A stretch of 6,406 bases of DNA. It comes from Candidatus Desantisbacteria bacterium CG1_02_38_46 (GTDB lineage Bacteria > Desantisbacteria > UBA1551 > UBA1559). Under the pieces are notes generated by a model. The model had not been told where the DNA came from, did not search any database, and saw nothing but the letters and a program-made list of their open reading frames with translations. The DNA is taken from the NCBI GenBank assembly GCA_001871015.1, contig MNUO01000078.1, positions 1 to 6,406 of the forward strand. Direction: 5' to 3'. The position numbers were made by a program, and so were the translations under genes. Positions within the stretch are counted from its first letter, which is position 1, and the number at the start of each line of letters is the position of its first letter. This document shows, piece after piece, positions 2,758-6,406 of the stretch.

Positions 2758-3832
2758 AGATCAGACCAATTTTCTGCAAATTCAGCCTTAAATCATTCGG
2801 ACTTGTGGCATAAGAGAGGGCGGTCTCTAATAAGATAATATTCGACTTAAACAATTCAATAAGTGATTGGTCAAAAGTCTGCATTCCGTATCCGGTCCCC
2901 TCTTCAATCGCATGCAATATCTTATCAATATCTCCTGAACGAATGAGCTCGTGCACCCTGGCAGTATTAATCATTATTTCAACTGCCGGGACCCTTCCAA
3001 CACCTGAGGCGCGTGGCACAAGGCGCTGGGAGATAATTGCTTTGAGGGTGCCTGAGAGCATTGCACGCACTTCGTTCGCCTGTTCCAGTGGAAAAAAACT
3101 TATTATACGGTTTATGGTCTCTGAAGCATTTGTGGTGTGCAGGGTACTCAACACTAAATGACCTGCTTCGGAAATTTTTAATGCTGAAGATACACTTTCA
3201 GCATCACGCATCTCTCCTATAAGGATTACATCCGGATCCTGACGCACTACATTTCTCAGTGCCGAACCATAACTTTCAGTATCCGTGATAATCTCCCTCT
3301 GGGTTACCAGTGATTTCTGCTGAGGATGGACAATTTCAATGGGGTCTTCGACCGTAACTATATGACAGGGGCGGTTCTGATTTATGAAATTTGCCATAGT
3401 TGCAAGCGTAGTTGTCTTACCACTGCCGGTAATTCCTGTAACCAGAATAAACCCTCTATTCTCGAGAGCTAATTGCTTGAGTATCGGTGGCAAATTCAAT
3501 TTATCAAAGTCAAGTTCTTCTGCACTTAATACACGGCGCATCGCCACGCTTAAATGTCCCTGCTGATGACAGAAATTCACACGAAACCTCCCTATTCCCT
3601 CAGCAGTATATCCTATATCCACCTCCTTTGTTCTCTCAAACATCTCTTTGTGTGCCTCATCCAATTGTAGCATATCTGCAATCAACTGCATCAATTCCTT
3701 GTGCTCCATAGGTTTCTCTTCACTGAACACGAGTTTTCCATCAATCCTTAAAGATGGTGGACTCCCCTCCCGGAAGTGAATGTCCGACGCCTTCTTTTCA
3801 ATTGCACTCTTCAAAAACTCTTTCAGGTTCAC
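2756..3832 (-). CDS. pilT: PilT/PilU-family type IV pilus retraction ATPase
   Basis: The 358-residue protein is a full-length hexameric retraction ATPase of the type IV pilus, acting at the cytoplasmic face of the inner membrane to depolymerise pilin. The N-terminal PAS-like domain contains KKASDIHFREGSPPSLRIDG (13-32). The motor core has Walker A GITGSGKTTT (133-142), the Asp box HIVTVEDPIEI (157-167), Walker B DPDVILIGEMRD (199-210, catalytic Glu207) and the His box AGHLVLSTLHTTNA (223-236). The C-terminus has GYGMQTFDQSL (315-324) and SPNDLRL (344-350). The AIRNLIRE motif of classical PilT is only loosely matched, by ARVHELIRSG (291-300), so PilU-like or generic PilT-family naming is equally fair. 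The start is GTG at 3832, lying 35 bp inside pabB, with a strong AAAGGGAGG 5 nt upstream. No other pilus genes are in the window, so the pilus is assumed to be encoded elsewhere. Confidence 0.95.
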   Translation of the reverse strand: MNLKEFLKSAIEKKASDIHFREGSPPSLRIDGKLVFSEEKPMEHKELMQLIADMLQLDEAHKEMFERTKEVDIGYTAEGIGRFRVNFCHQQGHLSVAMRRVLSAEELDFDKLNLPPILKQLALENRGFILVTGITGSGKTTTLATMANFINQNRPCHIVTVEDPIEIVHPQQKSLVTQREIITDTESYGSALRNVVRQDPDVILIGEMRDAESVSSALKISEAGHLVLSTLHTTNASETINRIISFFPLEQANEVRAMLSGTLKAIISQRLVPRASGVGRVPAVEIMINTARVHELIRSGDIDKILHAIEEGTGYGMQTFDQSLIELFKSNIILLETALSYATSPNDLRLNLQKIGLI

Positions 3833-5339
3833 CTTGTCCTCCCTTTAATGCCGTGATTAGTGCCCTTGCCTTGTCCAGTGTCTCTTGATACTCATCTTCT
3901 GGATTTGAATCTGCAACAATTCCTCCGCCGACCTGGAAATAGGCTCTGTTTCCCTTGATAATAAAAGTGCGAATCACAATATTCAGGTCCATATTCCCAT
4001 TGAAACTTAGATATCCTATTGCTCCAGTGTAAATGTTTCGTTTTGTGGGTTCAAGTTCCTCAATAATTTCCATTGCCCGAATTTTGGGTGCACCAGTGAT
4101 TGAACCACCTGGAAAAGTTGCCCTGAGCAAGTCAATTGCATCTTTTCCTTTATATAAATTGCCCTCTACAGTAGCAACTGTGTGAAAAACAGTGGGATAT
4201 TTCTCCAGCGCAACCAGTTCTTTTACTCGAACTGTCCCGTATTTGCAGACCCTGCCCAGGTCATTGCGTTCCAGGTCCACTATCATCACTAATTCTGCTC
4301 TGTCTTTTTCGCTTTTGAGAAGTTCTCTTCCTAATTTCCTATCTTCAGCAACAGTCTTTCCCCTGGGTCTTGTACCTTTGATTGGTCTGGTCTGGACAAT
4401 ACCATCTTGAACCTTCAAAAAACGTTCGGGGGAAGAACTGACTACAGCAAAGTCTCTATAATCTAAGAAAGCAGAAAAAGGTGCCGGATTAACCCTGCGC
4501 AACCTCTTGTATAGTTCAAAAGGAGGTGTTTCAATTTGGGTCACAAACCTCTGGGAAAGGTTTACCTGGTATATATCTCCCCAGGAAATATAGTGCTTAG
4601 CTCGATTTATAGCCTTGATATAAGATGAATATGTGAAATTTGAGGTTAAACCCCCACTTTTTCCTGATTGTTTTGAACTAATATGGGATATTATCTCTTT
4701 TTTTGGTTTATTTTCTATATTTTTTAGGGATGAAATTAATTCATCTGTGTCCTGACCCACTATGAAAGCCCTATTTTGAATATGGTCAAAAATCAGGCAA
4801 TTGTGGTAGAAACAAATATAACAATCCGGTAAATTTATGTCATCTTTAGCAATATTTGGCAATTTCTCAATATGCGCTCCCAAATCATAAGCAAAATAGC
4901 CCACTGCACCACCAATGTAAGGCAAGGCTTTAGCCTTGCTTGTAACGGTCCGAAGCCCCGATGTCTCCGATGCTATCGTTCGGAGTCCGACAGAATCGTC
5001 GGACCATCGGGGTTCGGACTCCATCGGAGTGCGGTCTATCGCTCCGATGTCCATCGGAGTAGTGGCAGGGCTTGCCCTGCAAAATTTAGCCAATAACCCC
5101 TTCAATATATTAAAAGGATTGCCTTCAAGGTGTCTTGTTTTACCATTTTCATTGATTTCAATGTGTCTGCCCTTACTCTTGAACCTCAAAAAGGGGCCAG
5201 ACCCCATTATAGAATACCTGCCATAGACCGGGTGGCGAATCCCTGATTCTAACAGAAAAGGGTAGGGTCTGTCTTTGAAAAGTCTTTCAAATACATCAAC
5301 AGGCTTAATATTAAGTTTACCAACTTCAAAGATTTTCAT
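3798..5339 (-). CDS. pabB: Aminodeoxychorismate synthase component I (PabB), with an in-frame palindromic insert
   Basis: This 513-residue chorismate-binding enzyme converts chorismate, with ammonia from a PabA-type glutaminase, to 4-amino-4-deoxychorismate for folate synthesis. The N-terminal domain shows RYSIMGSGPF (41-50), NPFNILKGLL (74-83) and IGGAVGYFAYDL (142-153). The catalytic domain shows GDIYQVNLSQRF (254-265), PIKGTRPRG (319-327), ELVMIVDLERNDLGRV (349-364), FPGGSITGAPK (409-419), IYTGAIGYLS (436-445) and GGGIVADSNPEDEYQETLDKA (471-491). Lys321 in PIKGT marks PabB; anthranilate synthase TrpE has Ala there (PIAGT). About 53 residues (87-139) between AKF and LPYIGG have no place in the family and are encoded by the palindromic DNA at 4922-5080. 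Without them the length is about 460, which is normal. It follows the unknown gene by 15 bp and shows no clear ribosome site. It overlaps pilT by 35 bp. No pabA or pabC lies in the window. Confidence 0.93.
   Translation of the reverse strand: MKIFEVGKLNIKPVDVFERLFKDRPYPFLLESGIRHPVYGRYSIMGSGPFLRFKSKGRHIEINENGKTRHLEGNPFNILKGLLAKFCRASPATTPMDIGAIDRTPMESEPRWSDDSVGLRTIASETSGLRTVTSKAKALPYIGGAVGYFAYDLGAHIEKLPNIAKDDINLPDCYICFYHNCLIFDHIQNRAFIVGQDTDELISSLKNIENKPKKEIISHISSKQSGKSGGLTSNFTYSSYIKAINRAKHYISWGDIYQVNLSQRFVTQIETPPFELYKRLRRVNPAPFSAFLDYRDFAVVSSSPERFLKVQDGIVQTRPIKGTRPRGKTVAEDRKLGRELLKSEKDRAELVMIVDLERNDLGRVCKYGTVRVKELVALEKYPTVFHTVATVEGNLYKGKDAIDLLRATFPGGSITGAPKIRAMEIIEELEPTKRNIYTGAIGYLSFNGNMDLNIVIRTFIIKGNRAYFQVGGGIVADSNPEDEYQETLDKARALITALKGGQGEPERVFEECN
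3838..3846 (-). promoter_or_regulatory. Strong ribosome binding site for the pilT GTG start
   Basis: AAAGGGAGG on the minus strand ends 5 nt before the GTG at 3832. It sits within the last codons of pabB, and this placement supports the overlapping GTG start. Confidence 0.75.
4922..5080. repeat. GC-rich palindromic element inserted in frame within pabB
   Basis: The two ends are perfect hairpins of similar design: GCAAGGCTTTAGCCTTGC (4922-4939) and GCAGGGCTTGCCCTGC (5065-5080). Between them are more inverted pairs: CTCCGA 4965-4970 with TCGGAG 4980-4985; GTCCGAC 4985-4991 with GTCGGAC 4998-5004; a near-perfect long pair 4949-4963 with 5005-5019; ACTCC 5018-5022 with GGAGT 5026-5030; and CTCCGATG 5042-5049 with CATCGGAG 5052-5059. 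The word CTCCGATG or its complement occurs four times. GC is about 60 percent by eye count, clearly above the flanks. It is free of stops in the pabB frame and in two plus-strand frames. It encodes Arg/Ser/Thr/Pro-rich, probably unstructured residues in a loop of the N-terminal domain. The exact ends are not defined because no target duplication is obvious. Confidence 0.85.
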
Positions 5340-5354
5340 TTTATATCTGTTTAT

Positions 5355-5975
5355 TTAAGATTCCGCCGCTGCAAGAATTTGAACAACATCAGCTAAATGT
5401 ATTTCTATGGTTTTCCCCACAGGGATGAAATTATCAGTAAATAAATTTTTGTATGCCTTTAAAAAGTAATCGATAATTGCATTGAGAGATTTTTCATCTC
5501 CTTCACGCTCTATTAGATTATTATAGAAACCCCTGGCTTTTGAATCTTTTGCCATTATCTCTTTTATTATGGTTGTGCAGTTCTTGCCATATTTTAGAAG
5601 GATTGCTCTTTCTTCAATACAGCACAATTGAGAAAGCCACATATCATCATATTTTAAAAGAAGTAGATCGGTAATGGGAAATCCCTTCCTGAATAATTTA
5701 GTAGTAATGTCATTTCCATATAGTGCACCGACACAAAAATTTAATTCTAGATTTTTTAATCTACCTTCTACTATAAGATTTTTTGTGTCCAAAGAACTAA
5801 CTGATACTTTATTACCGGATTTCTTCAATCTCTTTATAAGAAGTTTAAAACCCTCTTTGCTGGAAGAATAGAATCCTGCACTTTTGTCGTTTGCAATTGT
5901 GGCAGGTCGGTCACCTTTATCAAAAAGTATTCCAATATACAACTCAAGGTTATTTATTTCAAAATGTTTTAACAA
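5355..5975 (-). CDS. Hypothetical protein, 5' end uncertain
   Basis: I do not recognise this protein. From the only conventional start in the frame (TTG at 5975) it has 206 residues, of mixed alpha/beta character with no signal peptide or membrane segment. Visible segments are NLELYIGILFDKGDRPATIAND (about 9-30), a helix EGFKLLIKRLKKSG, ITDLLLLKYDDMWLSQLC (101-118), EERAILLKYGKN, and a helical C-terminus ending in HLADVVQILAAAES. The passage around DLLLLK faintly recalls nucleotidyltransferase-like proteins, and the N-terminal half faintly recalls IS110-type DEDD transposases; neither match is good enough to name. The TTG has no ribosome site, and the frame stays open for 65 codons upstream with protein-like sequence, so the true N-terminus is probably further right or has been lost. 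pabB starts 15 bp after its stop, so the two are likely cotranscribed. Confidence 0.65.
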   Translation of the reverse strand: MLKHFEINNLELYIGILFDKGDRPATIANDKSAGFYSSSKEGFKLLIKRLKKSGNKVSVSSLDTKNLIVEGRLKNLELNFCVGALYGNDITTKLFRKGFPITDLLLLKYDDMWLSQLCCIEERAILLKYGKNCTTIIKEIMAKDSKARGFYNNLIEREGDEKSLNAIIDYFLKAYKNLFTDNFIPVGKTIEIHLADVVQILAAAES

Positions 5976-6213: not shown

Positions 6214-6238
6214 GGTTACCATAGGAGGTGGTAACCAT
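6212..6238 (+). promoter_or_regulatory. 9-bp inverted repeat bracketing the transposase ribosome site
   Basis: ATGGTTACC (6212-6220) and GGTAACCAT (6230-6238) are perfect inverted copies. The 9-nt loop ATAGGAGGT holds the ribosome site AGGAGG (6223-6228), 8 nt before the ATG, and the last two bases of the right arm are the A and T of the start codon. The left arm also overlaps the end of the -10. As DNA it could be an operator. As RNA it can form only in transcripts entering from upstream, because the element's own transcript would start at the edge of the left arm. Confidence 0.7.
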
Positions 6239-6406
6239 GCGACCTGTATTTATTCGGAAATTATCCAGACATGAAAAAAGAATAATAAAGGAATTACTTC
6301 GTTCTATAAATACTCGACTATATAAGCGCGCCAGGATAATCTGGCTTTCCAGTGTTAAACACTTAAAAGCACCAAAAATTGCTGAAATTGTTGATCTCCA
6401 CTTAAT
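6237..6406 (+). CDS. IS630-family transposase, N-terminal 56 residues (cut by window edge)
   Basis: The frame starts at an ATG behind a strong AGGAGG and runs off the right edge. It begins MRPVFIRKLSRHEKRIIKEL and continues with LLRSINTRLYKRARIIWL (21-38), a short linker, and KAPKIAEIVDLHL (44-56). This matches the N-terminal helix-turn-helix of IS630/Tc1-mariner transposases: a first helix rich in E and L, the RARIIWL segment (RARILL in many members), and then an IAEIVDL helix corresponding to the usual IAE-LG-S motif. The family moves by DDE/D cut-and-paste into TA dinucleotides; the catalytic domain is outside the window, so completeness is unknown. It is divergent from the minus-strand block. 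Other HTH proteins of the homeodomain-like class are possible but less likely given the compact promoter layout. Confidence 0.75.
   Translation, partial: MRPVFIRKLSRHEKRIIKELLRSINTRLYKRARIIWLSSVKHLKAPKIAEIVDLHL

Follow-up and report, generated by a model that had tools for sequence, protein, structure and literature searches.

The pabB gene of Candidatus Desantisbacteria bacterium CG1_02_38_46 carries within its reading frame a composite palindromic insert, which is not a single element: by its sequence, five or more hairpin modules belonging to three families are piled up and nested in it. We consider it very likely that nested repeats of the REP/BIME type entered the pabB linker serially and were kept as an in-frame, translated loop, and that RAYT transposases spread the tagged modules.

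A palindromic insert in the reading frame of pabB

The window, the whole stretch of 6,406 nucleotides analysed here, lies on contig 27 of a draft genome of 1.73 Mb in 133 contigs, which is 88% complete. The gene and its insert are placed as follows:

3798..5339, minus strand: pabB (aminodeoxychorismate synthase component I, 513 aa), host of the insert; Pfam Chorismate_bind (2.5e-95) and Anth_synt_I_N
4917..5080, minus strand: composite palindromic insert, about PabB residues 87-139, indicated by fold z-scores, an alignment gap and pLDDT

A sequence-only reading of this DNA had described a GC-rich palindromic stretch, bounded by hairpins and read through by PabB, and this description is borne out. 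The terminal hairpins are GCAAGGCTTTAGCCTTGC (4922-4939) and GCAGGGCTTGCCCTGC (5065-5080), and inverted repeats based on CTCCGATG fill the stretch between them; the GC fraction, 0.40 and 0.37 in the remainder of the gene, rises to 0.60 here; and the PabB frame passes through without a stop. On single-strand folding the insert reaches a z-score of -6.7 as RNA and -8.4 as DNA, and none of 200 dinucleotide shuffles folded as well. An Rfam search of the window gave no match.

The extra residues fall between two N-terminal blocks of PabB. In a 46-sequence alignment these blocks are separated by 59 residues in the window protein and by 46 in that of Candidatus Desantisbacteria CG1_02_49_89 (G001), the nearest genome, against at most 23 in the other 44 homologues, a few of which are truncated at the linker; a 15-sequence comparison agrees. 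The segment is thus absent from distant PabB proteins, and the net gain over homologues is about 45 residues. Pfam matches Anth_synt_I_N as two separate stretches. The AlphaFold2 model (mean pLDDT 86.5, with residues 90-125 below 50) has the same fold as PabB of B. subtilis and E. coli; it thus predicts an ordinary PabB fold in which the insert is a disordered loop.

The insert is open in three of six frames, two of the plus strand included, and the earlier reading had called the two open plus-strand frames what one would expect of an element selected to be tolerated inside genes. The open frames are present, but at least three are also found in about 6% of composition shuffles, and we dropped the idea of selection for openness in many frames.

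Anatomy of the insert

The modules, all given on the plus strand, are:

4917..4939, plus strand: module A, GTAA tag at 4917-4920 and hairpin GCAAGGCTTTAGCCTTGC at 4922-4939; GTAAC-tagged relatives are frequent in the window genome
4948..5019, plus strand: module h3, arms GTCCGAAGCCCCGATG (4948-4963) and CATCGGGGTTCGGAC (5005-5019) around h2 and h1
4965..4985, plus strand: module h2, CTCCGATGCTATCGTTCGGAG; exact copy in C58, two-mismatch form in fmt (C76)
4985..5004, plus strand: module h1, GTCCGACAGAATCGTCGGAC; exact copy in C58, singly in frame in an adenosylhomocysteinase-like gene (C99)
5020..5060, plus strand: module h4, CATCGGAG/CTCCGATG inverted repeats with hairpin CTCCGATGTCCATCGGAG at 5042-5059; two-mismatch forms in C76 and C117
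5059..5080, plus strand: module B, GTAGTGGCAGGGCTTGCCCTGC, GTAG tag at 5059-5062 and hairpin at 5065-5080; 114 strict-pattern matches

Every module has matching or related copies elsewhere in the window genome. Module B (GTAGTGGCAGGGCTTGCCCTGC) has exact copies in C85 and in nrdG (C89), and the word of module A is also present in pabB of CG1_02_49_89. The untagged GTCCGA/CTCCGATG hairpins sit inside one another: the nested h3/h2/h1 form recurs in contig C58 with 97% identity over 72 nt, and priA (C117) and C130 have the h3 arms GTCCGAAGCCCCGATG and CATCGGGGTTCGGAC with no inner modules between them. On inspection, modules h1-h4 have no GTAG at the hairpin foot. Because hairpins lie within the loop of another hairpin, we infer serial insertion: small REP/BIME-type palindromic repeats would have entered the pabB linker one after another, and as each step was in frame and stop-free, the composite would have persisted and been translated as a floppy loop.

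No full-length second copy of the insert was found in the window genome, where only partial matches occur, the best of 72 nt. The earlier description of a mobile-type palindromic repeat in PabB therefore stands, but that of one element with two related end hairpins gives way to the pile of modules. The same result bears on the possibility that the insert is one mobile element, transposed whole and selected for an open frame that proteins tolerate, in the manner of the Rickettsia palindromic elements (RPEs). Its occurrence in frame within many unrelated genes and its length, near the approximately 150 bp of RPEs (PMC10969869), speak for this; however, the modules are found apart, the openness in three of six frames is reached by shuffles, and the GTAG tags and the RAYT neighbour suit REPs better, which makes such an element improbable.

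Hairpin families across the genome

The strict GTAGTGG pattern has 114 matches on many contigs of the window genome, and the reversed pattern has none. Repeat statistics were taken from 40 stretches of this genome (522 kb), which include 101 of the 113 strict matches outside the window. There, a perfect stem of at least 6 bp follows GTAGTGG at 147 of 253 sites, against 0 of 46 for a control word, and GTAAC at 81 of 581, against 12 of 1316 and 9 of 1122 (about 1%) for its controls. The stems vary by paired changes (CAGAG/CTCTG, CAGAC/GTCTG, TCGAG/CTCGA, CAGGG/CCCTG), and a count of GC-rich hairpins whose loop is 2 nt long gives 217, where a Markov control gives 5. Module B thus has the features of GTAG REPs, with GTAG at the 5' foot of the palindrome and dispersal in high copy number. 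Neighbouring GTAGTGG units within 80 nt take all four orientations, 44 of 99 pairs being inverted, as in BIMEs. Module A departs from this class in its tag, GTAA(C). The mobility of the units is suggested by their dispersion.

In other genomes, strict GTAGTGG matches number 12 in CG1_02_49_89 and are found in 7 of 143 further genomes (33 in G087, 15 in G017, 7 in G114 and one each in four others, single matches being a level that the reversed-pattern control also reaches). G087, G114 and G017, which belong to other groups, contain the same hairpin words or very similar ones, and by these words the GTAGTGG family may have spread between phyla. None of the GTAGTGG units sampled in G087 and G114 qualified as in-gene, and one G017 unit in a short open frame was taken as chance.

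In-frame units in conserved genes

The earlier reading had suggested a genome search for further copies, and this yielded many module copies, many of them in frame inside genes. An open-frame scan with NCBIfam naming found in-frame units in 20 conserved genes: topA, dprA, ispE, ispG, uvrA, a calcium ATPase gene, asd, thiL, tsaB, fmt, the gene of an OppD/DppD-type ATPase, nrdG2, trpE, priA, the gene of a NuoL-type antiporter subunit, tsaD, thrC, hisC, trmD and mfd. With pabB and the C99 gene, which from its translation we take to be adenosylhomocysteinase-like, the carriers number 22; since contigs were picked for carrying repeats, these and the following in-gene figures are counts within a chosen set. 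The HMM match is interrupted at the insert in topA, asd and fmt. In ispE (L096:4877-5042), seven tandem hairpin units encode (S/C)R(V/I)NSATT repeats, 56 residues in total.

Every unit found inside a gene keeps the frame and contains no stop. Conserved genes broken by a hairpin were sought and none was seen; clusters that lack a spanning open frame but have long frames on either side lie, as judged from translations, between different genes. Tagged perfect units are under-represented in long open frames, which hold 37 of 147 GTAGTGG units and 2 of 73 GTAAC units, compared with 65% of random positions. The difference between the two families (Fisher p ~1e-5) is in line with how many frames are open in a unit, four to five of six for GTAGTGG and two of six for GTAAC. 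Near-neutral tolerance of the translated units would be our reading of their persistence.

Strong mRNA hairpins in conserved enzymes could also suggest that RNA excision removes the units, or that ribosomes bypass them, leaving a protein without them. Such a process would not need units to be in frame and stop-free, yet all of those in genes are, and an enzyme with the predicted loop could still fold; we hold removal or bypassing to be very unlikely.

Orthologous sites in the sister genome

CG1_02_49_89 is assigned to the same order as the window genome and has inserts at the same sites in pabB, asd, priA and thrC. Its pabB carries the word GGCAAGGCTTTAGCCTTGC at the same site, and the rest of the insert is different; its asd insert includes CCCCGATGGACATCGGGG, and its priA linker has other repetitive words. 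In-frame units also lie in three further genes, one of which is presumably a glutamyl-tRNA synthetase-like gene, all three being named from reading translations. The trpE insert is absent from trpE of CG1_02_49_89.

The long insert at one site in both PabB proteins, with the KAKALP hairpin word in common, might be taken for a native functional loop of this lineage that is palindromic in appearance only. Apart from this word the two inserts have unrelated sequences, however, and dispersed copies of the same modules in unrelated genes and between genes contradict this reading, to which we give a very slim chance.

In thrC, both Desantisbacteria genomes have a GTAGTGG hairpin at the identical junction (L125:8614-8635 and L076:1501-1522), and the two hairpins differ solely by one compensatory stem pair, T-A to C-G; the window-genome gene has an additional inverted unit beyond the shared hairpin. 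This one case suggests an old insertion that has kept its pairing, the alternative being repeated insertion at one site. The junction is common to an independently named genome, and in-frame preservation in 22 genes is not expected from misassembly; an artefact of metagenome assembly or binning, which a draft in 133 contigs might invite, is thus scarcely credible. The thrC unit, one compensatory pair apart between two families of one order, also hints that selection, or ongoing rewriting by transposases inside genes, keeps the hairpins in coding sequence paired. We think this rather unlikely; if pairing were maintained, the in-gene hairpins would act as mRNA or DNA structures.

Candidate movers

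In the model proposed for REPs, RAYT proteins handle single-strand hairpins. The GTAG- and GTAA-tagged modules would most likely have spread in this way, with RAYT (Y1/HUH) transposases acting on their single-strand hairpins. CG1_02_49_89 has ten PF01797 matches, and its RAYT gene on contig C23 has arrays of GTAAC-tagged hairpins on both sides, an association that ties module A to a RAYT gene. In the window genome there are two RAYT-like genes, neither flanked by such hairpins and one of them containing an internal stop, as well as an IS200-like end at C53. GTAGTGG hairpins beside RAYT genes were found neither in the window genome, at 88% completeness, nor in CG1_02_49_89; in G087, a Y1 transposase gene has GTAG-tagged hairpins on both sides. 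From these neighbourhoods, a RAYT is supported as the mover of the GTAAC family and is a plausible mover of the GTAGTGG family. For modules h1-h4, which bear no tag, no mover is known; this counts against our explanation, as does the lack of GTAGTGG hairpins beside the RAYT-like genes found in the window genome.

Other hairpins were seen at such genes. Both RAYT-like genes of the window genome have short terminal inverted repeats, one (L106 ~8480-9250) with GGGGACG..CGTCCCC and the other (L117 ~6860-7900) with the ends GGGTCAGACCTCAAC..GTTGAGGTCTGACCC. A second Y1 gene of CG1_02_49_89 has another hairpin family, with CCTCAACTTGTTGAGG upstream and CCCCAACAAGTTGGGG downstream (L222:1372-1443, 1987-2083).

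Relation to known repeats and significance

The sequence-only reading had proposed an independent analogue of the RPEs. The GTAG-tagged REP/BIME class with its RAYT is a closer relative, and in-frame copies of it are already published: GTAG and CGTC repeats include intragenic in-frame copies, most of them in Opitutus terrae and R. conorii; clusters in Thauera and R. conorii encode 43-82 residues (Di Nocera 2013, PMC3733652). In the same study RAYT genes are flanked by GTAG repeats or long TIRs, and the recognition of GTAG hairpins by TnpA-REP has been described (PMC8266576). Module B resembles this class in its GTAG tag, short perfect palindrome and high copy number, in single and paired units of both orientations, and in copies that lie in frame in core genes, those for repair included; the lineage also has RAYT genes flanked by tagged hairpins. 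Unlike GTAG REPs, the pabB insert nests three families, module A is tagged GTAA(C) and h1-h4 are untagged, and the host group lies outside the Proteobacteria, Cyanobacteria, Chloroflexi and PVC group for which GTAG repeats are listed (PMC3733652). The likeness to RPEs, drawn from their description, lies in palindromes in frame in many unrelated proteins and a total near 150 bp, but here there is no single full-length family, modules occur singly, and tag and phylum are different. The two window-genome RAYT-like genes with short terminal inverted repeats recall TIRtrons (TIR-flanked RAYT, PMC3733652), but their repeats are unrelated to the pabB hairpins.

In-frame intragenic GTAG REPs (PMC3733652) and RPEs are thus already known, and the working principle is unchanged; new are the lineage, the nesting of several families in one insert and the orthologous sites in a sister genome. 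Our literature search found no earlier paper on such repeats in Desantisbacteria. To our knowledge, selfish-type palindromes within proteins are known chiefly from Rickettsia and a few REP-rich genomes. The present genome would be an unusually rich example, with translated selfish-type DNA in about 20 core enzymes of a little-known group, and it can serve as a natural experiment to learn at which places foreign peptides are tolerated in proteins, how translated hairpin repeats evolve, and which RAYT moves which repeat. It also cautions that segments encoded by repeats are present in the gene models and alignments of such genomes.

Beyond pabB, the window holds a 206-codon open frame without a Pfam match (5355-5975) and, at 6238-6406, the start of a frame that, from reading its translation, we take to resemble an IS630-type transposase, inside which the window ends.
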